The position numbers were made by a program, and so were the translations under genes. The notes under the pieces were generated by a model that was given only the letters and a program-made list of their open reading frames with translations, searched no databases and was not told where the DNA came from. Positions 6,804 through 36,700 of a stretch of 64,000 nucleotides of DNA are shown here, piece after piece. The DNA is from Mya arenaria (taxonomy: Eukaryota > Mollusca > Bivalvia > Myida > Myidae), in contig NC_069125.1 of assembly GCF_026914265.1 (NCBI RefSeq), positions 65,523,479 to 65,587,478 of the forward strand, in the 5' to 3' direction. How positions within the stretch are numbered: position 1 is the stretch's first letter; every line of letters starts with the position of its first letter.

Positions 6804-9800
6804 TCAAGGCTTTTTGTTGTCTGTTGTGCCCAGTAATGCCCATATACACAGTCCTCCAGAGATCAACACCCCTGACCTGAAAAATGCAATTAAAACAGAT
6901 GATATAATTTCAACATATACAAACGAGCACACTTTTTAATAGCCAATGCAAACTTTCATCTATATTTTCCAGCTGGTTGAGGGGCACAACTCAACAGTTA
7001 TTTATTTTCCATAATAATATTATTACTTATTATAGTCATTGTTACACCCTGGGCATTGATAGCATTTTACTAGTTACATGCTAAAAAAAATGTGAAATAA
7101 GCCTGGCTAAGGCCTAAGTTTTGCATGACCCAGACCAAATCACTAAAAGGCCTAACTTTTGCATGATCCAGCCAAAAACACCAAAGGCTATGACAATACT
7201 TATATCATTGTTTTCTTACCCCTTTCTCCCTCCCCCAGGCCAGCTAATTAATTTTTCTACTGTTTATGTAGCTGCTTTACATGCACATATATTGTACACC
7301 AAGTTTACATTACAGCGCTGTAAATATAAGCAATTTTGGCAGAGATAAAAGCGTTATTTTACTTATACAGATAAGGAGAAAATTGGACATTCCATTTTTC
7401 TTGTCACACAAAACATACCAAAGTATTCCACGGACCACAGGTGAATGTCTCCACACACTGTACTTGGTCACAAAGATGCTGTTGTGCTGTTTAAAGGCCT
7501 TCAGAATGTCCTTGGAACTTGAAAAAAAAAAACATACGGTAAGCAAAAGGATAAGGCCTTACAAAATATATTTGGTTTGGGTAACCCGACTCATCGAAAT
7601 ACCCTAATAATTATTTATTTTTTATGTTTCAATACGTGATTTAAAACCTTTAAAGCTTTATTTAGAAAATTGCTTTAACCTCATTCTCCAATGATGACAA
7701 TTATGTTCTTATATAAAGCCTAATAGAAAAAGCCTACCTACCCTACCTAGTTTTTAAAGTATGTAACCTTAACCAAACTATTTCATTTTTTTGGCCTAAC
7801 ATACACAGGCATGTATTAATGTACAAGTAGACATTTTGACAATTTGCCATTAAATGTCAATGAATTTGCATATGTTTAAATCCGACTGTCCAAACTTTGC
7901 AAATCATATATTGTAACATATATAAATTATAATTAGTACAGATTACTTTTTTTTTTTACTATTTTGTTTTTGTTTTGTAGGGTGAGTTATCAAGGAATGA
8001 TGTTAATTTACCATTTGAAACTGTTGGTGGCTGCCAGTGCTTGGTTCTTGCCATACAGTTTTAAGTCTACATTGCCATACGGAGAAAACCACTTTGCCAG
8101 CTGCAACCATAAACATTATCAATTTTAATATTTGTCAATAAACATCATATTGACAGATTTTTTTTACATTGTTTTAAATGATTACATAATGTACAAGTGT
8201 GTAGGTAACATTCCTAAATGATGTTATAAAAGTGGAAACTATTTTCAAAGAAGTTTCATATTTTGATATTATTAATCATTTGAGGACACTTATATGCAAA
8301 TACGGCCACCATACTTTACAAACCCATGCTATTCTCACCTGATCAATATTGAGTCTTTTCTTCATAAATCTGCTCTTCACAAACAAGAACTCTGGCTTTT
8401 GAGATTTGTAGTCAGCCCCATCTAGATTCTAATACAAATTATTTATTTGAAAAATTATTGAAACCATAAATAAGACAATGACCTCTTTTATAAAAAAAAT
8501 CTTAATGTTGTCCATTCAGTATTTTGTAAAGACAGCTACAGGTTGTATAATAATGTAACGGCTTATATCATATGATTATGTAACAACATTTAGTTTTTGA
8601 GATTAAGGAATCTGACCCACATATAAGCAAGTTATGTTTACGATTATGTTAAATGTTGATGCAAGTTGTGACCCCATGTAATTTTAAGCATCTTTCGAAA
8701 GAGTTCTTCTTGCCGATTACCAAAATGTTAACTAAATGACCAGAAGTATTTTGTATATATTTAAAGCTATTGTACTTTGTAATTTTGTTTCAACTGAAAT
8801 CAAAAGTGAAGACTTCTTTTTTTTCAAGGACAAAAAAAATTGTTTATAACACTACTTAATGTCTAACTTCTTCAGTTTTTTCCTACACCAAAACCCCTTT
8901 GAAATGATTCAAAAATAATATGGTATTAGAACTCAAAAGGCTTTCAAAATTCCAGTGTTTGTGTTTCAGATACCTTAAATGCAAATAAGGTCATCCTACT
9001 ATCAAGGTAATCTCAACTCCATCAACACAAGCGATCATTACAAAAGTTGATGTTGGGAAATCCTCAACTATTATTGGCTAAAAAAAGAAATATTATTAAT
9101 TAAATTGGTAAAACATATTGATTCATAGAAATTTGTGAGATATTCAAATGCTATAGAAACTTACTATATTGTTGACTCTGGCTCGTATGATGTTGATTCT
9201 GTTGCAGTAGTCTTCCATCGCCTGGAGGTAACGCCGGAACATGCACGGTATCACATCGGAGGATCTACAACGCACATGAGGGCAATTTAGTACAAAGTCA
9301 AGTGTGTATGGAAAGCATTTCAGTTCATTCATATACATTCATTTTTAAAGAGTAGAAAAAATGCTTCCAAACAGATCTTGTAACACAAGATTGCCATCCA
9401 TATAATTTCTAAATGCTTAAATAGCCATTCAAACTTGAACACTGTTTGTTCCGAAAGGGCCATAAAAGTTAAGTTTAATGTTCATTGCATCTTGCAGAAC
9501 ACTCTCAGCTTAGTGACAGGGTGCAAAAGAAGTGTTTTAACTATGTAGTTTTTAAAATTTGAAGGAAATATTTTTATACATATAGTTGAGGCAAACTTTC
9601 TTGAGCCATAAAGCCGTAGAAATATTGTTTCCAGTTATGTTTACTTCTGGACATGCTCTGCTTATTATGGAGCCAAAAATAGTTGCTGAAAGTCTGAAGC
9701 CAATGGCCTATTTCGTTGAGGAGACAATGGGACAACAGACTTTAACATTCAACTCAACATGGACCTACATACGCTCACGGAAGGGATATTTACCATAACA

Positions 9801-12800
9801 TTATGCCAATTTTCAGGGGGGTAAAAAAGAACAAGAAAACAAGAAAATGTGGTTTTTTTTAGATAAAGATGAAGATATATTTCATAAGAACAGTCTTTAC
9901 AAGTCAATTCACATACTTAACATCCATGAAGGTTATGATGTGTGCATATCTCAGGAACACTGTAAAACAATAAAATCATGAAATTGTGGAAAAATCCAAA
10001 TTCATTTGTTTAGTTATTAGTTTTAAAATTATCAAAAGTTTAAATTGTCTGGTCTAGGGTTACAGCTTTTGCTTTGAAAAATGTTAAATGGACAAGAACT
10101 TACTGTATAAAATGCCTTTCCAATGTCAATGAACACACCAGCTTATTTATCAATCTCCTTATGATTGTCAACTGGACATGGGCTTACAAATACAGTATCC
10201 TTAAAAATTTCAACTGACATGGATTTATAACTGCTAAAGTACAGTCATGTTAAAGAAATAGACTACAGCCACATTAATGACTATATCAAATTTTCAGTGT
10301 ATATTTAAGCAGAATAACTTAGTGAATGAATCAAGATGTGTTTTATTGTTAAAGTTTATAACATCTTACCAAAACCACACATATAAGCATCAAAACCAGC
10401 TTCATGAGGTAGGAAACCATCGCCTGTGAATGAAAAATTGACCTGTAGACTATGGCCAGTGATTAAGACAAATAATTAAATACATAGTGCATTTTACTTC
10501 ATGGTCATGTCACTATGCAAAAACATGTTATAACATAAAAGTTAATTGGCATAGATTCTTTAAACACAAAAAATTGAAACAAGTTTCATGAAGATTTGGT
10601 AGCAATGTGGCTGCTTGAGTGTCTACAGGTAAAATATATACAGGACTGAATAAGACAACAGTCAAGACAAAAGCTCTCCATGAGTAAGTTAATTAAGTAT
10701 CCAACATAATAACTACACAGGTTGTAGCTGTAATTTCTGTGTTTTAGAGTACACCAAATACTTTTTTAAGATATTATAAATTGTAAAAAAAAAATATGAA
10801 AGAGCTTCTGATTTTACCCAAAGTTCTCTCCAAAGGTGTGTCATGAAGCTTAATACTTAATTGATACAAGTCAACAGAAATACACAGAAATGACTTACGA
10901 TATCTGTCAAACCCTTCAGCATGAACTACAGCTGGGGGATGTATGACCAAGTCTCGACCTTTCTCACTGGAAATACAAGCCATAGGTCAGAGACTACATA
11001 CTTTGGTCAAGATTTTGATCAATAAGAATCATTTTGTATTTGATTTGGAAAATCAATGGTGGAAATAGCAACATTAAAACTTGTGAAACTGACATTATGC
11101 AAGAAGCGAAGCCATGTCTTTGGGGGTTTCGTAACATAAACCAAAAAAGTTTTTTATATTTAAAAGTTTTTTATATTTAATAACTTATTTAATGTTCCTA
11201 TGTTTTATCAACATAAGGTATACAATTTGTCCATTATAGAAACAAAGGTTTTTGTCCTTGACACTGTTTACAAATGTGTATTGAGGGGTTTTATGATCAT
11301 TGCTAAACCACATTTTAACTTACATAATGAAAAATGAGGAAAAAAAGAGAAAGAAAACATCTAAATAGTAGGTCTATATGACAATTTAGTGATATTTATA
11401 TATTCAAAATAAAAAAGAATGAAAAACACACCATTGTATAGCAGAAATATGGACAGATAACAGTCTTTGGAAAAAAAGCTTTGTTTTATTTCACGACGTC
11501 CTTGGCATGTAAAAGTTCTCGGTGCCTTAACGAAGGGTTGCTAATAATTGTACATAGAAAACTTTTCCCATCATTATTTGTGAATGAAATCTTCAATATT
11601 TGTTCCCAATGTATTGAATTGCAAGTTAAAGCTGCACTCTCACAGGTTGAACGTTTTGACAACTTTTTTATATTTTGTCTTGGAACAAGCCAATTGTTGT
11701 GAAAATATACCGGTATGGAAACCAGTTATATAAGACTGTTGACAAAACATTAGATTGCGGAATTTTATATTTAAGTTTAAAAATTAATGTTTTATGCATT
11801 TTTCATAAACTGTTCGAAACGATTTAAGCCATAAAACATTAATTTTTGATCGGAAATATGAAAATCTAGGATCTGATTTTTTGTCAGCAATCTTCTATCA
11901 TTGGCTTGCAGTTATTTACGCAAAAAATTGCACTTTATAAGACAACAAGAGCTGTCACAGTATGTGACAAATGCCCCCGAATGTGACATGGACCTACGAA
12001 CAAGGTCAGTACATGAAAAGTTTATCTTGCCTTTACGTGTCAAATACATATGGCAAGTTATTTTAAATTGCCTCTGAACATAAAAAAATACCACCCATAC
12101 TTGAAAACCTACACTGTTATGTCCTTATATTCAGAATTTCCTTGTGAATAAACACTTAGTGTATCTTTCACCTTAGAGGTAGGGACATGGGTCTTGCACA
12201 CAACACGTTGTCTTCGTATGTGGAACACATGTAGCAAGTGATTTTAAAATCTGTCCATACAAGGGAAAGTAACAGCCCGGACACGACAACCTATACTCTA
12301 TGTCCTTATATGCAGCACTCCATTGCGAATAAACACTAAGTGTGACCTTGACCTTTGAGGTAGGGACACGGGTCTTGCAGGCGACACGTCGTCTTGGTAT
12401 GTGTAACACATGTGGCAAGTTTTTTTTAAAATCTGTCCATACAAGAGAAAGTTACAGCCCGGACACGACAACCTATACTCTATGTCCTTATATGCAGCAC
12501 TCCATTGTGAATAAACACTAAGTGTGACCTTGACCTTTGAGGTAGGGACACGGGTCTTGCACGCGACACGTCGTCTTGGTATGTGGAACACATGTGGCAA
12601 GTTATTTTAAAAACAGTCCATACAAGGGAAAGTTACAGCCCGGACACGACAACCTATACTCTATGTCGTTATATGCAGCACTCCATTGTGAATAAACACT
12701 AAGTGTGACCTTGACCTTTGAGGTAGGGACACGGGTCTTGCAGGCGACACATCGTCTTGGTATGTGGAACACATGTGGCAAGTTATTTTAAAATCTGTCA

Positions 12801-15800
12801 ATACAAGGGAAAGTTACAGCCCGGACACGACAACCTATACTCTATGTCCTTATATGCAGCACTCCATTGTAAATAAACACTAAGTGTGACCTTGACCTTT
12901 AAGGTAGGGACACGGGTCTTGCACACGACACGTCGTCTTGGTATGTGGAACACATGTGGCAAGTTATTTTAAAATCTGTCCATACAAGAGAAAGTTACAG
13001 CCCGGACACGACAACCTATACTCTATGTCCTTATATGCAGCACTCCATTGTGAATAAACACTAAGTGTGACCTTGACCTTTGAGGTAGGGACACGGGTCT
13101 TGCACGCGACACGTCGTCTTGGTATGTGGAACACATGTGGCAAGTTATTTTAAAATCTGTCCATACAAGGGAAAGTTACAGCCCGGACACGACAACCTGT
13201 ACTCTATGTCCTTATATGCAGCACTCTATTGTGAATAAACACTAAGTGTGACCTTGACCTTTGAGGAAGGGACACGAGTCTTGCACGCCACACCTCGTCT
13301 TGGTATGTGGAACACATGTGGCAAGTTATTTTAAAATCCGTCCATACAAGGGAAAGTTACAGAGCCGGATGGATGGACGGACGGACGGACGGTGCGATTT
13401 TAATATGCCCACCTTCGGGGGCATAAAAATAAAAAAGTTGTAAAAAACGGTATATCTGTGAGAGTGCAGCTTTAAATATCTTAATATATTGTTTACATTA
13501 TTAATTTGCAAAATGAACTTGTCCACAAACTTTAAGAAATTCCACATACATGCATTTACACTGCGTTACTGTTGGAAGATGATAAAGTGCAGTATAAATT
13601 CAAATGATTTTGTGTTATCATTCAAGAAAATCTAATAAATTCATCATGTTCTTGAAGTAAACTTTCCATACCTTTCAATATCCGTATACAGTTCCGACAG
13701 ACTGGTGTTCTGCAACAATCCCGACTCCTCCAGTTTCTTGAATGAAATCAACAAATGTTTACTTAGTATTATAAAATTATTCCAAAATAATAGAGCTCTT
13801 TAAGGCAACTCAGAAAAGAAGCATGTATCATTGTTTATTAAAAGTTTTACAGGAAATATGCCATCAAAAAAGTTAGTTTTAATTTAAAACTAACTTTTTT
13901 GATGGCATATTTCCTGTAAATCAGACTGATTAAAAAAGAGCATTCAATCATAAGTGACAAATGCCCCTGAAGGAATGAACCGAAGTCCCTAGCACCTGAA
14001 ATGTAATTGCAAAATTTCAATGAATACTCAATAGCCACAAAGTACAATATTGATCTAGAGGCTGGAGCTGACACAATGTCTCTATGTGTTGAATATTTGT
14101 GCCTAGTTATTAAAAATTTGTACCAAATTTGCATGAGGAAGTTACAGCACGGACTCAATCATATGTAATGTACTAGCTGAATTTTCTCATATAACCTGCA
14201 AGTAAGATCTTGACCTTTAAGGTAGGAACTTGGGACTTGTGTCAGACATATCATCTTCATGTGCTGAACATTTGCTTATAGTTATGTAAAATTACTCCAA
14301 TGTGTGAGAAAACTACAAGAAGGACATGACCATATGTAATATGATTGTATATTCACCAAATAAAAACAAAAACAAGCATATAATTTAGGTACAGATAATA
14401 ATATATTAATCTTTATAAATGGTGTTTTTTTTAATTAATAGCTATATGGCCATAAATCCCCAGTTAAAAAGCCGCAAAATATCACTACTATTATTTTATG
14501 TACCTTAATCATATGCTTTTTGTTTGTTTTGATCATTAGGTTCAAATGAGTCAAACATGAAAATGTATAAAAATTAAAAAAAAATATTTTCACATCAAAC
14601 TATATTGGGTGCCTGTAGTGTGGGGTAAATTTGTGCCAGTTCATCCCATGCATAAGAAAGATAGAGCCTGGAGATAAAAAAGCAAACAACAGAGCACATG
14701 GACAGATGGATGATACAATTACTATATTACATGAAAATTCAATGTAAAATAGATATAACTGGAAAATCAATAAAGCATCTTTGGCATACCCCTCTGAGCC
14801 TAAGAGCAACATGTTTAGTGTCGTATATCCAGGGAAAGAAGGCATGTAGGGTTGCCTTGAACTCAGAATACGACACGGGTAGTGGGCGGTGGAATTTGTC
14901 ATACATCAGCATCAGGTCCATCAACATGTTGTGACCCAGCAGAGGCTGTAAATAGGTTCATTCTTTAAAGACAATGATTATTATTTTTTAAGCCTGGGCC
15001 CAGTTTCACAAAATTACTTGATTAAGTCATTAACTTCCATTACAATTACAAATTTCAAATAAGTTTGAAAGGTTTACTGTTCAGAACTTTGATGCAGTGC
15101 AAATCTTTGCTAGCAAGAAAATCGAAATGAAATCTCAATTTTAACTACCGGGTAGGGATGCAATCGAATGGCAAAATGAATATTCGAATATTCGGTAATT
15201 CTTTCTATTGAATATTCGAATATTCGATTATCAAAATACGTCTTTTAGAAGTTGAAGTAAACTATTATTATAATTCACTAAAGTAATAACCGGGGTATTT
15301 TAACCCTACTTTGCCATAGCAAGTACGCTCGGCAGACCCTGGTTTTCCCCAAATGATCCTCTGAATTTTCATATTTTCAGAAAGAAAAAACGCAATACAT
15401 TATGAATAAACAATTACCAAAATCGAATAATTTCAATTCCACTGCTTTCATATTTATACACAATGTGAAATAAGATGGATTCCTGGTCAAATGATGTTAT
15501 GCGTCTATGGAAGGTCTTTCCATAGATAGAGCAGCCACACATTTTGTCTCACTGTACATCAATAGAGAAAAATAAATATATCGTAAACCGCTGTAATATA
15601 CAGTTTCATTTCAAAGCATGAAGATTATATCGAAAAACATGGAAAACAGTATAAAGCACATACATGTAACTACATTACTGTAGCACATGTCATTCATATC
15701 ATCACGGCGATTTCAGCAATGTTACACAGCTTAATTTGCAGTCAAGACAACACATTGGTGAGAAGGCCGATTCTTTAAATCCTTAATTGGCAAAGGCATT

Positions 15801-18800
15801 TAAATTTACTGAAAATAATTGAAATTTTGGATGTCTCTTGTCTTTTAGCCAGTTATTGTAAAATTACAGGAACTTTTAATTGTACCAGACGGTAAGTCCC
15901 TTAATGACATATGACACGTGTTTAGTGTATTGTCATCCTATTTCACACCTCTGGCGTTATGGGTCAATGCTGTAAAAATAAGTTGTACGCAAAATATGTA
16001 TTATTCTATTTATTCAACATCAAAAAATCGAATATTCGAATACCGATTTTGACATTCGAATACCTAACGTTTGATCGAATATTCGTTTGCATCCCTTATT
16101 TTAACTCATCAATACTGTATACTGTAAATGATGATAGTAAGTCATACCTTCTTGCATTGCTTCATGACCCGGAAGACTCGTGTAAAGCCAAGCATTTTGA
16201 GTACGAGTTGCTCCTCTTGTTTCCATTGTAACGCCTTCTCTGCCTCCTCGAAACGTTGACGCTCCTCCAACCCTATACGCTCAATACTGATCTTGGGTGA
16301 GCAGGAATATATTTTGACAATTAAAAGATTATAATTATTTGAAATTCAACAACAGTACAGTAGCTTCCCTTATTTCCTACTGTGTGTTTAAAAATTAAAT
16401 ATTACTAAGCCATCTTTCGAAAATAATTTGTTTAAACTGGTTTTAAATAAATGAGCTATTTATTTTTAATGTTGTATGAACTAGAAATACAAGATGTGTA
16501 TTTTAAAAACACACACCATACCAGTTTGCCATCATTATCAATGGTTGTCCAAATGGAGGGAAATCTCCCTCTCAGCTCCATACTCAACACATACATTGGC
16601 ATACCCTCTGTTTCTGAAAAAGAAAATCTGTCAAATAGCAAAACGAAAGTTTAATTGCCCTTCAGCTAAAGTATGGATATTAGAGAATCTATGTCCTTTT
16701 AAACCATCTGCATAGATTTATAATTGTCCTAGACCTGATGAACTTAATGAGAAAATAATTTGAAGATTTTACAATTCAATCATCAAATCAAAACAATAAA
16801 TGAACAAAACTATTGATGTAATTGATGGATGCTCCCAGACATACTCTACTGGATACCTTTGTGAAATGATTATACTGGTTCATCAAGGTGGGGGAACTTT
16901 TTTTGAAAACAATTTTTATCAGAGCAATTCAAATATCCAGGAGTGTTGTCTCCACCTGCACACTGCTGTGACACTGGATAGGACATATCTGTCTACTTCA
17001 AGGTACCCACAGGGTAGGACATACCTGTCTACTTCAAGGTACCCACAGGATAAGACATACCTGTCTCCTTCAGGTACCCACAGGGTAGGACATACCTGTC
17101 TACTTCAAGGTACCCACAGGATAGGACATACCTGTATACTTCAAGGTACCCACAGGATAGGACATACCTGTATACTTCAAGGTACCCACAGGATAGGACA
17201 TACCTGTCTACTTCAAGGTACCCACAGGATAGGACATACCTGTCTACTTCAAGGTACCCACAGGATAGGACATACCTGTCTACTTCAAGGTACCCACAGG
17301 ATAAGACATACCTGTCTACTTCAAGGTACCCACAGGATAGGACATACCTGTATACTTCAAGGTACCCACAGGATAGGACATACCTGTCTACTTCAAGGTA
17401 CCCACAGGATAAGACATACCTGTCTACTTCAAGGTACCCACAGGATAGGACATACCTGTATACTTCAAGGTACCCACAGGGTAGGACATACCTGTCTACT
17501 TCAAGGTACCCACAGGATAAGACATACCTGTCTACTTCAAGGTACCCACTGGGTAGGACATACCTGTCTACTTCAAGGTACCCACAGGATAAGACATACC
17601 TGTCTACTTCAAGGTACCCACTGGATAGGACATACCTGTCTACTTCAAGGTACCCACAGGATTGGACATACCTGTCTACTTCAAGGTACCCACAGGATAG
17701 GACATACCTGTCTCCTTCAGGTACCCACAGGGTAGGACATACCTGTCTACTTCAAGGTAGACACAGGATAGGACATACCTGTATACTTCAGGTACCCACA
17801 GGGTAGGACATACCTGTCTCCTTCAGGTACCCACAGGGTAGGACATACCTGTATACTTCAAGGTACCCACAGGATAGGACATACCTGTCTCCTTTAGGTA
17901 CCCACAGGGTAGGACATACCTGTCTACTTCAAGGTACCCACAGGATAGGACATACCTGTCTCCTTCAGGTACCCACAGGGTAGGACATACCTGTCTACTT
18001 CAAGGTACCCACAGGATTGGACATACCTGTATACTTCAAGGTACCCACAGGGTAGGACATACCTGTCTACTTCAAGGTAGACACAGGATAGGACATACCT
18101 GTCTCCTTCAGGTACCCACAGGGTAGGACATACCTGTCTACTTCAAGGTAGACACAGGATAGGACATACCTGTATACTTCAAGGTACCCACAGGGTAGGA
18201 CATACCTGTCTACTTCAAGGTAGACACAGGATAGGACATACCTGTATACTTCAAGGTACCCACAGGGTAGGACATACCTGTCTACTTCAAGGTACCCACA
18301 GGATAGGACATACCTGTCTCCTTCAGGTACCCACAGGGTAGGAAATACCTGTCTACTTCAAGGTACCCACAGGATAGGACATACCTGTCTCCTTCAGGTA
18401 CCCACAGGATAGGACATACCTGTCTACTTCAAGGTACCCACAGGATAGGACATACCTGTCTCCTTCAGGTACCCACAGGGTAGGACATACCTGTCTACTT
18501 CAAGGTAGACACAGGATAGGACATACCTGTATACTTCAAGGTACCCACAGGGTAGGACATACCTGTCTACTTCAAGGTAGACACAGGATAGGACATACCT
18601 GTATACTTCAAGGTACCCACAGGGTAGGACATACCAGTCTACTTTAAGGTAGACACAGGATAAGACATATCTGTCTACTTTAAAGTAGACACAGGATAGG
18701 ACATACCTGTCTGCTTCAAGGAAGACATAGAATAGGACATACCTGTCCACTCAAGGGTATATACAGGATAGGACATACCTGTCCACTCAAGGGTATATAC

Positions 18801-21800
18801 AGGATAGGACATACCTGTCCACTCAAGGGTATATACAGGATAGGACATACCTGTCCACTCAAGGGTAGATACAGGATAGGACATACCTGTCTGCTTCAAG
18901 GAAGACATAGAATAGGACATACCAGTCCACTCAAGGGTATATACAGGATAGGACATACCTGTCCACTCAAGGGTATATACAGGATAGGACATACCTGTCT
19001 ACTCTAGGGTAGATACAGAATAGGACATACCTGTCCAATCAAGGGTATATACAGGATAGGACATACCTGTCTACTCTAGGGTAGATACAGAATAGGACAT
19101 ACCTGTCCAATCAAGGGTATATACAGGATAGGACATACCTGTCTACTCTAGGGTAGATACAGAATAGGACATACCTGTCCAATCAAGGGTATATACAGGA
19201 TAGGACATACCTGTCCACTCTAGGGTAGATACAGAATAGGACATACCTGTCCAATCAAGGGTATATACAGGATAGGACATACCTGTCCACTCAAGGGTAT
19301 ATACAGGATAGGACATACCTGTCTACTCTAGGGTAGATACAGAATAGGACATACCTGTCCACTCAAGGGTATATACAGGATAGGACATACCTGTCCACTC
19401 AAGGGTATATACAGGATAGGACATACCTGTCTACTCTAGGGTAGATACAGAATAGGACATACCTGTCCACTCAAGGGTATATACAGGATAGGACATACCT
19501 GTCTGCTTCAAGGAAGACATAGAATAGGACATACCTGTCCACTCAAGGGTAGATACAGGATAGGACATACCTGTCCACTCAAGGGTAGATACAGGATAGG
19601 ACATACCTGTCTGCTTCAAGGAAGACATAGAATAGGACATACCTGTCCACTCAAGGGTAGACACAGGATAGGACATACCTGTCTGCTTCAAGGAAGACAT
19701 AGAATAGGACATACCTGTCCACTCAAGGGTATATACAGGATAGGACATACCTGTCCACTCAAGGGTAGATACAGGATAGGATAGGACATACCTGTCTGCT
19801 CGAGGGTATATACAGATTAGGAAATACCTGACTACTTCAAGGTAGACATAGAATCGGACATACCTATCTACTCAAGGGTAGATACAGGATAGGACATACC
19901 TATCTACTCAAGGGTAGATACAGGATAGGACATACCTGTCTACTCTAGGGTAGATACAGGATAGGACATACCTGTCTACTCTAGGGTATATACCAGATAT
20001 GACATACCTGTCTACTCTAGGGTAGATACAGGATAGGACATACCTGTCTACTCTAGGGTATATACCAGATATGACATACCTGTCTGCTAGAGGGTAGATA
20101 CAGGATAGGACATACCTGTCTGCTAGAGGGTAGATACAGGATGGGACATACATGTCTGCTAGAGGGTAGATACAGGATAGGACATACCTGTCTGCTCTAG
20201 GGTATATACCAGATAGGACATACCTTCCTGCTAGAGGGTAGATACAGGATAGGACATACCTGTCTGCTCTAGGGTAGATACAGGATAGGACATACCTTCC
20301 TGCTAGAGGGTAGATACAGGATAGGACATACATGTCTGCTAGAGGGTAGATACAGATTAGAACATACCTGTCTGCTAGAGGGTAGATACAGGATGGGACA
20401 TACCTGTCTGCTAGAGGGTAGATACAGGATAGGACATACCTGTCTGCTAGAGGGTAGATACAGGATAGGACATACCTGTCTGCTCTAGGGTAGATACAGG
20501 ATAGGACATACCTTCCTGCTAGAGGGTAGATACAGGATGGGACATACCTGTCTGCTAGAGGGTAGATACAGGATAGGACATACCTGTCTGCTAGAGGGTA
20601 GATACAGATTAGAACATACCTGTCTATTTAAAGGTAGACACAGGATAAGACATACCTGTCTGCTTAAGGGTAAAAGTCTTCTCCTCTTCTTTACTGACCA
20701 GCCAATCTGCCACACGAGAACAGATCTTCTGTATAGCAAACTCATCCAGATCTCTTTTTCCATGAAAACAACATTCTTATTTTCATTTTTTTTTGTATGT
20801 GTTACTAAAACTATGTTTAGAAACATTTAGCTAAACTATTCCAGGTTAACCTATTATTAATTCAAAAATCATTATATATTAATATTCCAATACAAATATA
20901 TGACAACTACTTCAATACCAGATGCCAACAGGAGACATGTCGAGCCTGTTGAAGGAGCCTTTGACACAGACATAGTGCTCTTCCATGCAAAAGCAACACA
21001 TAATCACATGTAGTAGAATAGATATCAGACACCATAATTATGATGTTTATATGACCACCCTAAAAAATAAAAGTAATATTTCAAAATAACAACAATTTAT
21101 GTGACCCTGGGTCGTGCATGAGACACACAATCTCATAATGATGACTATGTGTGCTTGGTTACTTGCCAATCTAATAATACATAAATATGTGGCTTGGACA
21201 AGTAAGTGGCCTATGAACACAGCTCATTTTGACATGTAAGTTTGACAGTGACCTTTGCAATACAGGCCTGAGTCTTTAACTAACCCATTCCACATAATAG
21301 AGAACATATGTGTCAAGTTACTTGGGATTCCTATGATACATGGTTAAGATGCAGACTAAACTTGTGCGTGACATGCTGCCCGTCATGATGCCCATTCCTT
21401 TCAACTAAGTTGAAAATGCTATAATGCATGGTAAAAATAAGGCCCGGAGTAGTACTGTCCTATCAGCAGTACTCATTTAGACATTTAGCCTCAAAGTGAG
21501 ACCTTGACCTTTGAAGTACAGACCTGAGACTAGTACATGACAACCCCTAATATTAATGTACATTCATGTCAGGTTTCACGGAAATCCTACAATGATTGGT
21601 AAAGAGGTGGCCCGGACAAGATACAGGTCTATCAATATTTATCATTTCAGCCTATGACCTCTAAGCATGACTGTGAACCTTCATGGCAAGTTCTTCGAAA
21701 TCCTATAATGCATGGTCTTGATACAGCCAGTACCAGAATCTTATCAACCTTTGACCTCTAAGCATGACCTTGATCTTTGAGATACAGACCTTGGTCTTGT

Positions 21801-24800
21801 GTGTGACAAGCCACTGCATTATGGGGAACATTCATGGCATGTTTTTAGAAAATCCTATAATGCATGGTCAAGATACAGCTCAAAAAAGTATCATTTCAAC
21901 CTTTGACCTCTAAGCTTGACCTGGCTCTTGAGTGTGAAAAGCCACCTTATCATGGTAAACTTTTATGGCAAGTATTTTTTTAAAATACTGCAATGCATCG
22001 TCAAGATACAGCCCGGACAAGGTTCAGTACGGACAGACAAACTGACGCACGCACATACACTGTACTGCCATTGTGACAACTATGTCTCGCTCACCACACA
22101 CAGGGGTGACAACAACATTCTGTAACTTAAGTAAAAGCCACACTACTGCAGATGCTCACCTTTCCAGCCCTGTAAACATGGCCTTACTGGCAATATGCTC
22201 CCGGACCTCTCGCTCCTGGACTTCATTGAGAAATGACACTCCCTCATACACAAACTACAATTATAATCAAATTCATCAGTATTTATCATCATAAATCTGA
22301 TGTTACATTGTTTTTTTTGGTTTGCCAACTCTAAACAAACAGATTCTCATCTCACCATTTAAAACATAGAAATAAGAAATAACCTGTAATAATGTGAGAG
22401 TTTACTATATATATTTTTATATGCAAACATACCTTGTTGAAATCAAACTTGTAGCGGGTCAAAAACTGAAAACTGGATGCCTGAAGAAAACAAAGTTTTT
22501 CAAATGATACCAAGTAAAATTAATACATGTATTCTGCAAGTCAAATTTCTTTTCATGGTTCATTCAGAGCAGCCCTTAAAACTAAACACTCGACTATTCT
22601 ATCACTATATAGTTTAATGATTGCAAAGTTCTGGTAAAGCATGCTATAAAGTTAGATTACACGCAAAACCTTTACCACAGTTTCTAGGTGATTAATAAAC
22701 AGCCATAATTTTCATTACCGGGGTTATATGATTATGCAAAATATAGTTATCTAACTTGATAAGTTAAGGATTATGGATGGTTGATGGATGGTTTTGACAA
22801 AATTCATTAAACATGTAGTTTTTTAAAGATACTTATTGTTCTATGACCCATCAGCTTTCTTTTTATTTGAGCTAAAAACAAAGGAATAGTACACAATACT
22901 TTTCTCAAGAGGTTATTCCACATATATTTTACCTGGCACACAAACTTTTCATCAATCGGACCAAACGAGCGGGGGTATATTGGTATGTTGAAAGTCTTTG
23001 CAGTATACAGGCTGAAATGTGCAGTAAAATATCATTTACATAGTAACACTGTCATGTGACTTGTTAGTTCAGCAAACACATTAAGAGTTTGATATTCATG
23101 CATATTTTATTCTCATAACTTAATAACAGAAAAAGCATCTTCAAAGATGTTAGTACCTGTTCTGTTTTCGGTCTCTGGTAAATGTTGATATTCCTGAAAA
23201 ATCATGTAGCATGGTAACATGTGAATACTTCTAGTATATAACTCTTTAAAAATCAAGAAATTATTTTATATTTATTGTATAAAATATTATTTTTTAAATT
23301 TAAAGTTAAACTGCACTCTCACAGGTTGAACGTTTTGACATTTTTGTTTATTTTTTGTCTTGGAATGAGCCAATTTTTGCGAAAAATTCATGGAAACCAG
23401 TTATATAAGACTGCTGACAAAAACTTAGATCGCAGATTTTTAATTTAAGTTAAAAAGTTGATGTTTTATGCATTTTTCTTAAATCGTTAGTAGCCATAAA
23501 ACATTAATTTTTGAACGGAAATAAGAAAATCTGCGATCTGATCTTTTGTCCGCAATCATTTATCATTTGTTTGTGGATATTTAAGCAAAAAATTGCTCTT
23601 TCCAATTCAAAAAATAAAAAAAATTGTAAAAATGGTATATCTGTGGGAGTGAATCTTTATGCCATAGAATCAATGTGATTTACAAAGTTTAGTTAATCAT
23701 AATTACCTTCACTTTTGACCAAATATCTCATAAATAGAATGATTTACACCTAAATAAATGTTTCTTTAAATGAAGAGAAGAAAAAACTCATAACTGAACT
23801 TTGGCATGATACAACCTAGTCTAAACTAACCTATCTGGCACATTGTAATTTGGGACACTGTTTTTCTCAGCTTCCTATAGCGCTCTGCACCATCGTCAAA
23901 TAGACTGAAAAATATGTAGATGTAAGAATATCTAAATGATCATAGAAGATCTATGTACATCTGGGACCAGTTGGCTCTAGTGTACATTAAATGTTAACTT
24001 GACAGAGCAATATCTATAATATCTAGGCCATTTCAGATGTTACATAACAGTTATGTAGTAATAAAGGACCTTTTTCAACATTCTCATTACCAATCTTGCA
24101 AATTTTATATTACAAGTAAACCAAGCTATCTTATTAACAATTGTACATGTAATCTACCATGAGAATAGACCTAACAATAGCTGTCATAGGACAGCCAGCA
24201 CAACAATACCGGTATGTTGCTTTTATGTGATCTACCATGAGAATAAACCTAACAATAGCTGTTATAGGACAGCTAGCAAAACTATATGTTGCATTTTTCT
24301 TTAAAATGAATGCATTAATGATGTTAAATGTTCCTGTCAAAAACAATAAAAACTAGAGCTGTCACATGAGTGACGAATACCCCCAAATGCAGCCCGGACA
24401 CAGGAATGGCAAACCATTCCTTTGAAAAGAGGCCATAACTCCAAGGTTACTGCACACTGCATCTTCTTTTATCATGCATGTATTGTTTTATTTAAATCTG
24501 TTGAGTAATTTAGAAGTTACACTGCTGACAAGAAAAACTAGCTGATGCTCTAGCTGATCTCTTCTGGAATAAGACATCTAGAGCATTCACGAGCTTTTCT
24601 TCCAACACGATCATCATCAAATTTTACAAGTACATATTTGGGCTTGAATGCATCCTTATCCACCTGGGAATAAATCCCGGGACTGTTCCTGTAGCCGAAT
24701 TAACAAGTCCATCTGACAGGTCAATATTTGTAGTAAGCACCACTGTGGCAAATATGCCATACTTAAGTTCTGCTGGTATTCCACTGGCATCTGGTTCAAA

Positions 24801-27800
24801 TGAAGCATGCTGGATTTGTTTTGTTTGTTCATCTTTCCAAGTGTCAATTACTTTTAAGGTAAATATTTGCTCATTTAGTTTTTGGAGGATCTATCAAACT
24901 TGACCTGTATATTCTGATGTTTCACCTGTGTACCATAAAATGTTCAAATCTGTCAAGCCTTTCATGAGTTATCATCCGGAAACCATTTTTCTATTTTTAG
25001 TAACAGTGACCTTGACCCCACCAGCCCCAATATCGAACTTGATCTGTATCTTCTGATGTTACACCTGTGTACCAAAAATTGTTCAAATCCGTTTAGCCTT
25101 TCATGAGTTATCATCCGGAAACTGTTTTTCTTTTTTTAGTAACAGTGACCTTGACCTTAGCCCCACCAGCCCCATTATCGAACTTGACCTGTATCTTCTG
25201 ATGTTACACCTGTGTGCCAAAATTTTTTTTAATCTGTCTAGCCTTTCATGAGTTATCCTCCGGAAACCATGTAAACCGACCGACCGACAGATCGACCGAC
25301 CGACTGACCGACCGACAAGCTCACTAACTTGATCTGTATCTTCTGATGTTACACCTGTGTACCAAAAATAGTTCAAATCCGTCTAGCCTTTCATGAGTTA
25401 TCGTCCGGAAACTGTTTTTCTTTTTTTAAGTAACACTGACCTTGACCTTGGCCCCACCAGCCCCAATATCGAACTTGACCTGTATCTTCTGATGTTACAC
25501 CTGTGTACCAAAAAATTTTCAAATCTGTCAAGCCTTTCATGAGTTATCGTCCGGAAACCGTTTTTCTATTTTTAGTAACAGTGACCTTGACCTTGGCCCC
25601 ACCAGCCACAATATCGAACTTGACCTGTATCTTCTGATGTTACACCTGTGTACCAAATTTTTTTTTGACAGACCGACCGACTGACCGACAAGCTCACTCC
25701 TATATACCCCCTCAAACTTCGTTTATGGGGGTATAAAAATCATAAACAAGAGCTGTCACAGTATGTGACAAATGCCCCCGAATGTGACATTGACCTATGA
25801 ACAAGGTCAGTACATGAAAAGTTGATCTTGCCTTTACATGTCAAATACATATGGTAAGTTATTTAAAATTGCCTCTAAACATAAAAAAATACCACCCATA
25901 CTTGACAACCTATACTGTTATGTCCTTATATGCAGCATTCCATTGTGAATAAACACTAAGTGTGACCTTGAACTTAGAGGTAGGGACATGGGTCTTGCAC
26001 GTGACATGTCGTCTTGGTATGTCGGACACATGTGGCAAGTCATTTTAAAATCTGTCCCTACAAGAGAAAGTTACAGCCCGGACACGACAACCTATACTCT
26101 ATGTCCTTATATATGCAGCATTCCATTGTGAATAAACACCTAAGTGTGACCTTGACCTTAGAATAGGGACACGGGTGCATGCGACACATCGTCTTGTTAT
26201 GTGGAACACATGTGGCAAGTTATTTTAAAATCTGTCCATACAAGGGAAAGTTACAGCCCGGACACGACAACCTATACTCTATGTCGGATTGTCCTTATAT
26301 GCAGCACTTCGTTGTGAATAAACACTTAAGTGTGACCTTGACCTAAGAGGTAGGGACACGGGTCTTGCACGCAACAGGACGTCTTGGTACGTCGAACACA
26401 TCTGGCAAGTCATTTTGAAATCTGTCCATACAAGGGAAAGTTACAGCCCGGACATGACAACTTATACTCTATGTTGGATTGTCCTTATATGCAGCACTTC
26501 ATTGTGAATAAACACTTAAGTGTGACCTTGACCTAAGAGGTAGGGACACGGGTCTTGCACGCGACAGGTCATCTTGGTACGTCGAACACATCTGGCAAGT
26601 CATTTTAAAATCTGTCCATACAAGAGAAAGTTACAGCCCGGACATGACAACTTATACTCTATGTTGGATTGTCCTTATATGCAGCACTTCATTGTGAATA
26701 AACACTTAAGTGTGACCTTGACCTAAGAGGTAGGGACACGGGTCTTGCACGCAACAGGTCGTCTTTGTACATCGAACACATGTGGCAAGTCATTCTAAAA
26801 TCTGTCCATACAAGGGAAAGTTACAGCCCGGACATGACAACTTATACTCTATGTTGCATTGTCCTTATATGCAGCACTTCATTGTGAATAAACACTAAGT
26901 GTGACCTTGACCTTAGAGGTAGGGACACGGGTCTTGCACCGACACGTTGCCTTGGTATGTGGAACACATGTGGCAAGTTATTTTAAATCTGTCCATACAA
27001 GGGAAAGTTACAGCCCAGACACGACAACCTATACTCTATGTCCTATATGCAGCACTCCATTGTGAATAAACACTAAGTGTGACCTTGACCTTAGAGGTAG
27101 TGACATGGGTCTTGCTCATGACACGTCGTCTTGGTATGTGGAACACATGTGGCAAGTTATTTTAAAATCTGTCCATACAAGGGAAAGTTACAGCCCGGAC
27201 ACGACAACCTATACTCTATGTCCTTATATGCAGCACTCCATTGTGAATAAACACTAAGTGTGACCTTGACCTTAGAAGTAGGGACACGGGTCTTGCACGT
27301 GACACGTCGCCTTGGTATGTGGAACACTTGTGGCAAGTTATTTTGAAATCTGTCCATACAAGGGAAAGTTACAGCCCGGACACAACAACCTATACTCTAT
27401 GTCCTATATGCAGCACTCCATTGTGAATAAACACTAAGTGTGACCTTGACCTTAGAAGTAGGGACACGGGTCTTGCACGTGACACGTCGCCTTGGTATGT
27501 GGAACACTTGTGGCAAGTTATTTTGAAATCTGTCCATACAAGGGAAAGTTACAGCCCGGACACAACAACCTATACTCTATGTCCTATATGCAGCACTCCA
27601 TTGTGAATAAACACTAAGTGTGACCTTGACCTTAGAAGTAGGGACACGGGTCATGCACGTGACACGTCGTCTTGGTATGTGGAACACTTGTGGCAAGTTA
27701 TTTTGAAATCTGTCCATACAAGGGAAAGTTACAGCCCGGACACAACAACCTATACTCTATGTCCTATATGCAGCACTCCATTGTGAATAAACACTAAGTG

Positions 27801-30800
27801 TGACCTTGACCTTAGAGGTAGGGACATGGGTCTTGCACGTGACACGTCGCCTTGGTATGTGGAACACTTGTGGCAAGTTATTTTAAAATCTGTCCATACA
27901 AGGGAAAGTTACAGCCCGGACACGACAACCTATACTCTATGTCCTTATATGCAGCACTCCATTGTGAATAAACACTAAATGTGACCTTGACCTTAGAGGT
28001 AGGGACATGGGTCTTGCACGCGACACGTCGTCTTGGTATGTGGAACACATGTGGCAAGTTATTTTAAAATCTGTCCATACAAGGGAAAGTTACAGCCCGG
28101 ACACGACAACCTATACTCTATGTCCTTATATGCAGCACTCCATTGTGAATAAACACTAAGTGTGACCTTGACCTTAGAGGTAGGGACACGGGTCTTGCAC
28201 CGACATGTCGCCTTGGTATGTGGAACACATGTGGCAGGTTATTTAAAAATCTGTCCATACAAGAGAAAGTTACAGCCTGGACACAACAACCTATACTCTA
28301 TGTCCTATATGCAGCACTCCATTGTGAATAAACACTAAGTTTGACCTTGACCTTAGAGGTAGGGACACGGGTCTTGCTCGTGACACGTCGTCTTGGTATG
28401 TGGAACACATGTGCCAAGTTATTTTAAAATCTGTCCATACAAGGGAAAGTTACAGCCCGGACACGAGTTATTGAGCTGGACACACGGACAGACGGACGGA
28501 CGGACAGGGCGATCTTAATATGCCCACCTTCGGGGGCATAAAAATCAAGGGCCATCATCTGTGGAGTTATGTAACCTGATTGTGTGTTAGCCATAAACAA
28601 CTGTGTGAAGTATGAAGTCCATTGAATGAACAGTATTTGAGGTCTGAGTTAAAACCCAAAGCTGCCCTTAAACTTGGACCAAACATTTAAAGTCAATCAA
28701 GAGCCATAATTTGTCTTTATGATAATATGGTTATCTAACCTAATTGTATGATGGTAGTCAACAACATTGAAAAGTATGAAGTCAACTAAATGAAGTGTAT
28801 AGAAGTTATTAGTGAAACTCCCAATTTACCTTCAAGCTATGATCCTTAGTCAAACAGGGGCCATAATTCGTATTTAGGATGATACAGAGTTAAGTAACTA
28901 AATTGTGTAATGGTCCTGAACAACGTTGAGAAGTACAATCGGGGCAACTAGTATAACCATCCTTATTCTTCAGATACATGTAGACAAGATCAAAAAAATA
29001 TGATATATATATATATTATGAAGATGTTGATGATTTAATTTTTTGGCATGAACTACCTTGATTTGACTTGCTCATTCAATCTCAGGCCTGTGAACTCAGT
29101 GTCAATAGCTGTAAAGATATAAGTTAAAATATAAAAATATACATGAGCATACATTTGGAATACAGCTGAAACAATGATCATGCACTTTGGAAAATAGATC
29201 TTTTAAAATTGAGATACTTTTAAATAATTACATAATGGCAGCATGTACAGCAGAACATAAAAATACTTTTTCTAGCACTCATTTAATGATGTTTAGCTAA
29301 ATTGATATCATTAAAAATTTATTTCTACACAAAAATAACAGTATAATTGTTTATTGATTTTTAATTTCAACAGTTCAAATCAGAGACATAAATTAATGAC
29401 TATGTTTTAGGGCTATTCTTTAAGTTTCTGGACAGAAGCAAATTTATTCCACCAATTAATAATATAAACCAGGGCTTCTAAAAACCTCCAATTTGCAAAG
29501 ATGTGACACTGATGTGTGGGTTAGTAGTACAGCTCTCTATATTGGGTCGCACTAAAATGCAGTCTTTACAGCGGACTTAATAGAAAGCGTTGAATAGTGC
29601 GCACGACATAGATATAGAAAAAATCTCAACATAGCATTTATTGGAATACTGCGGACGATATTGAAGTAGAATAAATCTCATAAAACTAAAATTTTGGTCA
29701 TTTTTCGTAATAAATCTGTTTCAATAGTGTGGACGACATAGAAATAGAACAAATCTCAATATGTACATTTGTTTGAATAGTGCGGACGACATAGAAATAG
29801 AACAAATCTCAATATGTACATTTGTTTGAATAGTGCGGACGACATAGAAAAAGAACAAATTTCAACAGATCATTTATTGGAATACTGCGGACAATAAAGG
29901 AGTAGAATAAATCTAATATTAAAAGCTTATATTTTGGTCATTTTTTGTAATACATCTGATTCAATAGTGTGGACAATATAAAATAAAAACAAATATCTTT
30001 ACCTCTGTATCAATAGTGCGGACAATATTGAATAAGAACAAGTCTCATTACCTCTGTTTGTTCTATTTCTATGTCGCCCGCACTATTCAAACAAATTTAT
30101 TTACTTATATATCTACTTATATTCTTATTTCTTGATTCTTTCATTTATTATTTACGAACTCACTAACTAATTCATGTATTCAACAACACAAGGGCCATTG
30201 CAAGATAGCCCCCACTTGGTGTGGCCTGGATGTAGATAGATACTTTCTATTGCTTATGATTAGAAAAGTAATCCATCTACAACTAAGCGCTCTAAAAATA
30301 TATTTAAATTTTATTAAATACAATAATATTATGTTTATATGTGCTTATTTTTGCCAATATTATCTTATTTTCACCACAAAAAGCCGGATTTTCATTCATA
30401 AAAACAATAATAATAAACAAATACAAGCTCTTATAACATGTTATCTATCAATTCTAATAAAATAACATTAACATTTGCATCATTCAGCTTACGCGAATCA
30501 AGGAAAACACAATTATTAGATTTCCTTCTTTGTCTATATTGGCCGCAGTTTTCAAAACCCTTCTTTGTTTATGTTGTCTGCACTATTCAACGCTTTCTAT
30601 AACGTCCGCTGTAAAGACCCTAATTTAGTACTGTACAGTCCGTTTATATTCTTCGAAAAGTCAAGCTAAAAATTAAGTTCTTTTCAAATATTTTTTCAGT
30701 ACAATTTCTTAAAGACCCAACATCCGATCAGACTATCGGATGTAAATGAGCTATAGAAGAGGAGTGGCTTATCAGTTAGGGTCAGTACCTGGGAAGTATT

Positions 30801-33761: not shown

Positions 33762-36700
33762 ATGCATACCTTTGCAGCGCTGTTCCTACTGGCTGTTTCA
33801 TCAGCTTCAGCCCAAAGTTCGTAATATAAACCAAAATCTGTAAAATGTTTACAGTTTAGCCTTTAGTCTAATAAGTGACATCCCTATCTATCTATCTATC
33901 TATCTATCTCTGTTTAATGTCAACTCCTCTTCCGAGTGTTACTGACATGAACGGTGACCGCCGGCTTGTTAGTGAAAAAAATAAAACACTGATGAGGCAA
34001 ATCACATCAGAAAAGTGAGAACTAGGGTATAAAAGAGAACACAATTTAGGTAACATGATAAAAAGAGATTGGTGAACTGGTAAAAGGATAAAAATACTGC
34101 TCGCTTTTCTAATGCTTAATGGTTGCCACAGCCACTTTGAATGTGTCAGGGGTGGGGATAGTGACAATATGATTTGGCAAACTGTTCCAAAGTACAACCG
34201 AGGGAGGATAGAATGAAAATTTGTGATAGTCAGTTTTTACTTGAATTTGTCTGAAACATAGTGGGTGCATTAGTCTGGTAAATCTTATTGGTGTTTGAAT
34301 ATAAGATGGCAGCGTAATAGCAACATGATGATGGTATATGTTGTAAAACATTACAAGTCGGGAATCCAGTCTACGTTGTTCAAGTGAGCGCCAACCAAGA
34401 CTTTCCTGCATGTTTGTAACACTGGAGAGAGGAGAGAAGTCATGTTTAACCCAACGGATAGCCCGACATTGAACCATTTCAATTTTATTGGTGTTTGATT
34501 TTGTGTGTGGGTGCCAAATTGTGCTTGCATATTCTAACTGTGGACAGACAAGGGTTTTGTAAGCTAAAGTCCTGACACTTTCTGTTTTTGTTTTTATATT
34601 TCTTTTAATGAAGTTGAGAGTATGATTTCCATTGGTGGTAATTCTCGAGATATGAGTGTTCCAGGTGAGGTCTGCTAATATGTCAACACCAAGATATTTT
34701 GCACTTCTGACTGGCTCTAAGATCTGGCCATGGAGAATGTATCGATTTCTGATGATATGCTTATTCTTTGTTATGTGCAAAACTTGACACTTGGAGGGAT
34801 TAAACTCCATATCCCAATCATTTTCCCATAATTCCAGTTGTTTGAGATCATTTTGAAGGATAGCACAGTCAGAGGGAGAATTGATGGTAAGGTAAACAGC
34901 AGTATCATCTGCAAAAAGTCGAACTTGTGATTTGATACTAGAAGGGAGGTTATTTATGTAAATCAAGATAAACAAGGGACCCAGTACAGAGCCCTGAGGT
35001 ACACCAGGTGTTACAGGTACTTCTTCAGAATGATCGCCATCCAAGACTACTGTCTGACTTCTATGAAGGAGAAATGCCTCAGACCACTTGAGAACCTGTG
35101 GACAAACACCATAATCCTGTAGTTTGAATAGAAGTTTGAGATGATTTACCTTATCAAAAGCTTTGCTGAAGTCCAAAAGAATTAAGTCAGTTTGATTACC
35201 TGATGAAGTGATTCTTACAAGATCGTCGGTCAGCTCAATAAGTTGAGTTTCGCATGAGCGCTTTTCACGAAAGCATATCCCATGTAGAATATAGAAACCA
35301 GAGCCTCCTTAGTCCATCTTGGACCACAGTGGTTTGATGAACTCCTGCTTTGGTGTCATATGACCTGTATAAATTTAAGTGACATTGAACAGAATTATTA
35401 TTTTTTCTTCAAATTTATCAAAGAGGTCACTCCTACCAACTATCTAGCTTAAAATATCTATGAATTACTGCAGTTTGACAATGTCATAAAATCTCCAAAT
35501 GCCTAAATATCGGATAAGTATGCAGATAAACATTACTTTATTTAATGTATCAAAGAAAAATACACATTCAGTAAAAATTCCTGCTTGGCTTGATATTCGC
35601 AAGGCTCAAAGTATTTTGGCCGGTCCCTGAAATATCAAGCCAACAGGTTTAGACTTTTATATAGACTGTCTTAAATATAGAACAATATAAATAGCACATA
35701 ATAAACATAGAATGAATACAGTTCAATATGAATAGCTCATTATACATATAAGCTAGCAGGCAAGTGGTTCTCGGACAGCAGTAGTTCTTGGACAGCAGTA
35801 GTTCTCAGACATTTCAATGACATTTTCCCTTCATATTGGATGTTACATATCAGGCGCCAGGTTATTATCAATCAGGCGCTAGAAACATCTTAGCAAGTAA
35901 CACTGGTTTCATCAGGTAAGGATTATGAGAAGTTAAATTTCAAAAGTCTCCATTTGTTGACATAATCACATCTCACTTCCGCTGAAATCACAATTTAAGT
36001 GTGAATACGCAAAAAAGCAAACCATAATATCAGGGCAGGATTCCAAGTTATGTTGTTAGTTTTAGGAAGCTTTCCAGAACTACTACTGTCAAACTAAAAT
36101 TTAAACTCTTCTGAATTCCTCTGACATAACCTATGAAAATAGAGTTAAGTTGTTTAATTTCACTTGATTTTGCATTATTTCAACAGAATACAAGCTTAAG
36201 TTTATTATAAAAAAATGAATTTCCATTAATTGGCCCTTTTGTTTGTTTGTGTTTTCTGAACACATAGAATTGGATATCTTTGTTCTATCTCGTGTACTGT
36301 TTAAGTTTTCATGCAGTTAATAATTTGCAAATTTATTAATTAATGCACTTATACATTTTCAAGTATCATTGGTTACACTGGTGACACATTTTTTAATTGG
36401 CCCGTCTGCTGCTGTTGTGAAAGTATGCATGACAATAATAGGTCAGACTCTTAAATATATTGGAGCCACAAGACTTGGGCTACAATAAATGTATTAGTGC
36501 GCAGTTTCAACATCTCAAAATATTGGGGCGGCGGTGCCTGTGCCTGCAGAGGAATTACACATAATCACAGGAGCCTTTTCTGATATCAAATGCGAAGAAT
36601 ACTAGTGCAAAGTATGAAGCATGTTCTTTGCACTGGTGTTCTGGAGTTGGAATTATAGTAAAAGATTGTTGATCATAAAAAATATTGTTGTTTTTCTTGA

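Follow-up and report, generated by a model that had tools for sequence, protein, structure and literature searches.

A minisatellite of splice-donor sites in an intron of a PNLDC1-like gene of Mya arenaria

Tandem repeats that span a splice donor are already known from published work on ABCA7, on CBS and on the boundaries of human duplicated genes. The variable number of tandem repeats (VNTR) in intron 18 of human ABCA7 is built of 25-bp units, 12 to ~427 of them (PMC5954066), and the 31-bp VNTR of human CBS, c.1444_1467+7(16_21), has 16 to 21 units (PMC2630376) that by their nomenclature should each combine 24 exonic with 7 intronic nt, a layout in which the donor should repeat in every unit. 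In human segmental-duplication genes, internal tandem repeats located at the exon-intron boundaries change splicing, and 27 intron modifications remained there after manual inspection (PMC2812944). How identical donors compete has been studied in five minigenes designed for exon definition, each with a pair of identical strong donors and 365-nt flanking introns; the upstream donor was used exclusively (PMC9225289). Here we describe a natural series of such sites in the bivalve Mya arenaria: a 36-bp minisatellite with 103 donor-like sites, which occupies most of an intron in a gene best read as PNLDC1. It lies in a stretch of 64 kb on one contig (C4:65523479-65587478), referred to below as the window. 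As in VNTRs of the ABCA7 and CBS kind, the unit holds the exon's own donor, and the array adjoins the exon on its intron side. We consider it likely that the array is a donor-site VNTR which was copied from the exon/intron junction and is mostly tolerated, its decoys being nearly all ignored. Among the matches listed by word searches of the open-licence literature, none describes a donor array in PNLDC1 or a recurrent donor-seeded class in a bivalve.

The array, its host gene and a second copy

Parsed on the minus strand, each unit joins 17 nt of exon end (TACCCTTAAGCAGACAG) to 19 nt of intron start (GTATGTCTTATCCTGTGTC), and the unit and the real donor share one register. A first-pass annotation had described about 100 copies of a 36-bp unit that fill the intron and repeat the exon end together with the first intron bases, and had placed the true donor at 20656/20655 on the minus strand; the present analysis bears this out on all three points, with 102.9 copies according to Tandem Repeats Finder (TRF) and 91.2% of the intron taken up by the array (Table 1). 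Near the exon, the edge of the array falls at 20669 by TRF and at 20672 by the Basic Local Alignment Search Tool (BLAST), i.e. no more than 17 nt inside the exon, and the remainder is intronic.

The donor-like sites, one real and 102 decoys, run from 20655 to 16988. The dinucleotide GT is kept at 101 of the 103, and the 9-mer CAGGTATGT (CAG/GTATGT) is present at 90, namely the real donor and 89 decoys; all 90 minus-strand occurrences of CAGGTATGT in the window lie inside the array. The earlier statement that every unit presents a donor equal to the real one holds for these 89 decoys at the level of the 9-mer, and does not extend to the full 12-mer AGACAGGTATGT, which is exact at 60 sites (the real donor and 59 of the 102 decoys). 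Genome-wide scans covered 1.216 Gb in 18 contigs. The bare 12-mer occurs there 409 times (reversed control, 14,759) and is not unique, which is why uniqueness is claimed for the 36-bp unit only. Scored with a small local weight matrix in which the real array donor is itself included, this donor ranks first among the 15 inferred donors of the gene (11.65, the next being 11.56). Use of any decoy would truncate the protein, as first proposed: in both copies of the region described below, reading through the real donor leads to an in-frame TAG, after 10 sense codons rather than the 11 originally counted.

Two 181-nt probes taken from the array were run in a search that leaves out very common words, and they matched nothing but the window locus and C4:66173355-66176378. 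A dispersed satellite or a transposon as the source was looked for with the same search and none was found; with units only in the PNLDC1 intron and its duplicate, the array does not qualify as a dispersed satellite within the reach of this search. Nor, within the same limits, was an array of this unit found in the genome beside an unlike exon end, the observation that had been named beforehand as speaking against copying from the junction.

Table 1. Coordinates of the features discussed (window positions, except where a contig is given)
Feature	Position	Strand	Basis
Inferred PNLDC1-like gene region, 15 exons, 401 residues, no stop, both gene ends incomplete	9165..29108	-	AG/GT exon chain
Exon before the array ("exon 8" of the first-pass annotation), 98 nt, ends ...TTTTACCCTTAAGCAGACAG, encodes DLDEFAIQKICSRVADWLVSKEEEKTFTLKQ-T	20656..20753	-	Open frame, AG acceptor, GT donor
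Exonic part of the first unit, 17 nt	20656..20672	-	Matches 3' part of array units
Real donor CAG/GTATGT, cut 20656/20655	20650..20658	-	Donor weight matrix
First in-frame stop TAG if the real donor is skipped	20624..20626	-	After 10 sense codons
Intron holding the array, 4,042 nt, 91.2% array	16614..20655	-	Exon chain model
Minisatellite, 36-bp unit, 102.9 copies, 87% matches	16970..20669	-	TRF
Next exon, 92 nt, TEGMPMYVLSMELRGRFPSIWTTIDNDGKL, acceptor TTTCTTTTTCAG	16522..16613	-	Continues PARN alignment, in-frame chain
Cathepsin L exon end	C8:32099469	-	43.7 copies of a 44-bp unit, 31 nt exon + 13 nt intron
Exon end of LPCAT3-like MBOAT gene	C9:5219328	-	37.1 copies of a 41-bp unit

The gene model starts at a conserved internal exon, and the number 8 for the exon before the array follows the earlier numbering. 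This exon chains in frame with its neighbours, and homology to PARN extends across it. The predicted protein matches the Pfam family CAF1 (E 4.7e-76) and the PDB entry 3d45 (mouse PARN, E 1.5e-44); the latter alignment pairs IDTEF with IDGEF, GHNMLMD with GHNMLLD and HEAGFD with HEAGYD, and the acidic residues of the aligned IDTEF, GHNMLMD and HEAGFD motifs presumably include the four catalytic acids of the nuclease domain. A separate PARN gene lies on C2, where the sole RNA_bind match above the cut-off (C2:33847221) is found on the same strand and in the same neighbourhood as CAF1 pieces (C2:33865788-33873565). Against RNA_bind, a piece from the C-terminal part of the window gene scores 16.5 bits, under the cut-off of 27.9. 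As the C2 gene possesses both CAF1 and RNA_bind, the PARN-like member of the pair is the window gene, a nuclease of the CAF1/PARN family that is best read as PNLDC1; a stretch of PARN used as query separates the two loci poorly (46% identity on C2 vs 43% at the window gene). The PNLDC1 identity given by the first-pass annotation fits a nuclease of this family that is distinct from the genome's PARN gene. PNLDC1, which we take to be the trimmer of PIWI-interacting RNAs (piRNAs), is characterized by a C-terminal membrane anchor, germ-line expression and piRNA trimming. Two further long arrays with a related 180-181-bp unit are located in introns of the PNLDC1-like gene (window 12106-13362 and 25904-28466).

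A second copy of the region, to which the array match at C4:66173355-66176378 belongs, lies 632 kb away on the same contig. Its surroundings (at least 80 kb, C4:66146001-66226000) are repeated at ~94-99% identity in non-array blocks, with gaps. Five probes placed ~108-408 kb from the known block were all without a match, each within a 5-kb stretch at the same offset, so either the duplicated block is limited or insertions and deletions have shifted it. The second copy is either an unpurged haplotype or a segmental duplication, that is, an allele or a paralog. It carries 84 donor sites against 103 in the window copy. The first 22 units are identical in order and sequence in both, and the differences between the arrays are mostly gains and losses of units farther from the exon. 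Over the coding parts, 3 of 1,205 nt and none of the 401 residues differ; the identical predicted protein with 84 and with 103 sites suggests that either array length is tolerated.

These two copies bear on the proposal, also made in the first-pass annotation, that array length tunes the germ-line output of PNLDC1. A longer array would then lead to more decoy use, or to more skipping of the downstream exon, and to less protein. The copies do differ by 19 donor sites, loss of the 92-nt downstream exon would shift the frame, and in ABCA7 the skipping of downstream exon 19 rose strongly with VNTR length (PMC5954066). Set against this are the intact and identical protein predicted from both copies over the modelled part, the retention of one unit in ABCA7, which at 2 +/- 1% at steady state is independent of array length (PMC5954066), and the exclusive use of the upstream site in minigenes with identical donors (PMC9225289). 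The proposal is weakened by these results, and we regard tuning by length as unlikely.

Donor-seeded arrays in other genes

A scan for three consensus donors in tandem returned many unrelated arrays, from which 20 were picked by hand for inspection of the exon side, some of them for their coding look (7 found via CAGGTATGT and 13 via CAGGTAAGT). In two of the 20, a cathepsin L gene and an LPCAT3-like gene, homology reaches the last residue before the first donor. The cathepsin L exon has a PDB match at E 1.3e-4, and the next exon contains GQCGSCW and matches Peptidase_C1 at E 1.8e-14; the LPCAT3-like exon has a PDB match at E 7.7e-15, and the next exon, with RYIFKRL, follows after the array. 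In both genes the exon-derived bases of the unit code for family residues as far as the final codon of the exon, and the next family exon lies past the array. On these grounds, copying from exon to array has good support in the gene sequences, as does use of the 5'-most donor. The family protein needs the 5'-most site in either case.

The decoys of these two genes differ from those of PNLDC1 in strength. Among the 43 sites parsed in cathepsin L, only the four nearest the exon, the real one included, read CAGGTAAGT, and 29 read CAAGTAAGT; 3 of 42 decoys therefore equal the real donor, and most of the others, chiefly CAAGTAAGT, have a weaker last exon base. Of the 36 decoys in the LPCAT3-like gene, 17 equal the real donor CAGGTAACT (CAG/GTAACT), and another nine carry the consensus CAGGTAAGT, from which the real donor departs; the first of these nine lies 415 nt downstream.

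A third array, in a kelch gene, is probably donor-seeded. The evidence is the kelch exons downstream of it; the exon's own 24 residues gave no informative PDB match (the best, Crov588 at E 3.2e-8, is driven by the repeat; LZTR1 is at E 3.1). Of its 55 decoys, 27 equal the real donor. A fourth array, before an UNC-93-like open frame, may sit at a noncoding exon. No clear exon was seen in the 1.15-1.4 kb inspected by eye and by open frames at each of the remaining 16 arrays, one of which (L049) was also searched against Pfam, where its exon-like end gave only a sub-threshold match (LINES_C, 13.3 bits). The same database yielded no family for three other exons, namely those of cathepsin L and of the kelch gene and the one that precedes the UNC-93-like gene.

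Recurrence in single genes is to be kept apart from a genome-wide excess of donor-bearing arrays over the backward-motif control, which was not established. Raw triplet matches number 1,884 for CAGGTATGT against 885 for its backward motif, and 211 for CAGGTAAGT against 377. Counted as distinct arrays by eye, with related copies unmerged, the figures are 17 against 5 for CAGGTATGT (C1, C2, and C3 to 6.14 Mb) and 8 against 12 for CAGGTAAGT (C1 to C7, up to 67.46 Mb). One of these 12 control arrays (C1:50680454-50681590, minus strand) has a coding-looking 47-bp unit with CAGGTACGT and is possibly donor-seeded itself.

The window holds one more array close to an exon, with a 37-bp unit in 15.8 copies (TRF; 39931-40526, plus strand). 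The exon before it ends in CTCAG at 39922, followed by GTAAAT; the array starts 8 nt into the intron and does not repeat that donor. By eye, this exon continues a tectonic-like gene, of which the preceding exon matches TCTN_DUF1619 at E 3.4e-17. An open frame of 399 residues (34109-35308, minus strand) resembles, by eye, a reverse transcriptase of the non-long-terminal-repeat type.

Donor choice across the array

The splicing behaviour that we infer from the observed anatomy, site counts, stop, duplicate and sister genes would come about as follows. A 36-bp segment across the exon/intron junction of the PNLDC1-like gene would have undergone head-to-tail duplication and grown, on the intron side, to ~100 units, which would now be turned over by ordinary minisatellite gain, loss and conversion. 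Because introns of 1,406 nt (upstream) and 4,042 nt (downstream) flank it, the 98-nt exon is probably recognized by exon definition. The U1 small nuclear ribonucleoprotein (U1 snRNP) bound at the donor nearest the exon, which is the real one, would pair across the 98 nt with the upstream acceptor, and decoys farther downstream, which would give longer exons, would mostly lose the competition. A survey of human genes likewise found that the upstream site is favoured when near-equal donors compete under exon definition (PMC9225289). If the first decoys were used at a low rate, the exon would lengthen in 36-nt steps, all with the same in-frame stop, and the products of this leak would be subject to nonsense-mediated decay; near-exclusive use of the real donor is the expected outcome. 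Given the preference for the nearest donor and the decay of leak products, the array is most likely tolerated for the most part rather than functional.

Several observations weigh against this explanation. In the human survey, ~60% of events favoured the downstream donor as long as strength was left unmatched, and the stronger donor won 85% of exon-definition events (PMC9225289), a rule that fits poorly with the nine decoys of the LPCAT3-like gene that are nearer to consensus than its real donor. In CBS, splicing of a 68-bp junction duplication takes place at the more distal of its two sites (PMC2630376), so the upstream-donor rule is not universal. The 2% retention in ABCA7 is a steady-state value, and a block of translation raised the frameshifted transcripts (PMC5954066), which implies that the true leak is larger. 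Within the PNLDC1 unit, GTATGT is the most conserved hexamer (99.6% vs 87.9% overall), first of 36 windows over all units and second of 36 over distinct units, a position that a neutral array would give it only by chance. Finally, conservation with PARN does not extend to the last residues of the exon, TLKQT, and ~3 extra residues stand in the alignment near the junction, which makes the direction of copying less certain in PNLDC1 than in its sister genes.

The unconserved exon end and the extra residues are what would be expected had the array come first, as an insertion or an older satellite that supplied a new donor, with an exon end derived from the array. That order of events seems improbable to us, since the unit is found nowhere else in the genome but in the duplicate, within the limits of the search, and since the exonic part of the unit is family-conserved coding sequence in the two sister cases.

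The conservation of GTATGT over all units could instead speak for a role of the decoys as U1 snRNP sites, which would strengthen recognition of an exon whose acceptor is poor or shield a long intron from premature polyadenylation. The acceptor of the 98-nt exon (20754-20764, minus strand) is purine-rich (CATGGAAAAAG), and its pyrimidine share of 0.45, a crude measure of acceptor quality, is the lowest of the 15 inferred acceptors of the gene, while the donor score is the highest; suppression of intronic polyadenylation by U1 is also published. Against this stand the turnover of units between the two copies, which looks ordinary, and the donor core of three comparable arrays, which is not the best conserved part of the unit there (rank 9 of 44, 38 of 41 and 9 of 32). 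We give the U1 role little credence, and as little to its wider form, in which donor-seeded arrays recur, ~90 identical U1 sites support the exon with the poorest acceptor and protect a repeat-rich intron, and array length sets the strength of the effect. Selective upkeep of the decoy donors was considered separately and set aside, the conservation signal of PNLDC1 not being repeated in the three other arrays.

Two further explanations would let the decoys take part in splicing or hide them from it. In recursive splicing, each CAG/GTATGT would serve as acceptor and donor, and the units would be removed stepwise and seamlessly. Intact sites do read CAG/GT, with a mean upstream pyrimidine share of 0.57 vs 0.61 for the acceptors of the gene, but many units are purine-rich just before CAG and contain earlier AG dinucleotides (GAAGTAGACAG), and the consensus of ratchet sites differs from such a purine-rich, AG-containing stretch; we hold this to be very improbable. 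Masking of each decoy in an RNA hairpin with the preceding unit, which would leave the first donor without a partner, draws on complementary stretches (CCTGT and ACAGG) in the units and on small stems seen on folding, and is scarcely credible. It was rejected when the RNA folding computation showed the real donor to be no more accessible than the decoys: over three window sizes, 73, 88 and 91 of the 102 decoys are as open as the real donor or more so in the 11-nt donor stretch, and 60, 61 and 77 in the donor hexamer.

Relation to known donor repeats

Of chief interest in the clam are how many decoys the array holds and the sister genes that share its design. The minigenes of PMC9225289 pit two donors against each other, and the clam genes offer 37 to 103 consecutive sites after one exon, with several genes of one animal carrying such a series. 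Since the decoys are mostly equal to the real donor in PNLDC1, include nine closer to consensus in the LPCAT3-like gene and are mostly weaker in cathepsin L, a single RNA data set could separate the effect of position from that of strength. The same data would indicate what level of leak is tolerated in a piRNA-pathway gene, and whether splicing responds to repeat length in genes other than those of human disease.

Like the minigenes, the clam locus has identical donors competing downstream of one exon; the former hold two designed donors with 365-nt introns in a human setting, the latter ~100 natural donors. With ABCA7 it shares tandem units on the intron side which carry the real donor of the exon (in ABCA7, as the first two bases of the unit) and a premature stop upon decoy use, predicted for the clam, whereas in ABCA7 the retention of one unit through a decoy has been seen in RNA (PMC5954066). 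The clam unit differs in its length of 36 bp, 17 nt of which are exonic, and as a multiple of three with an in-frame stop, where the ABCA7 unit shifts the frame. The CBS unit resembles it in spanning the exon end and the intron start, in another gene and another species and with 16 to 21 units in place of ~100 (PMC2630376). The repeats of human segmental-duplication genes are likewise tandem and located at exon-intron boundaries; they concern recent paralogs in which new introns arose through repeats (PMC2812944), whereas the clam array is a long series of donors within an existing intron.

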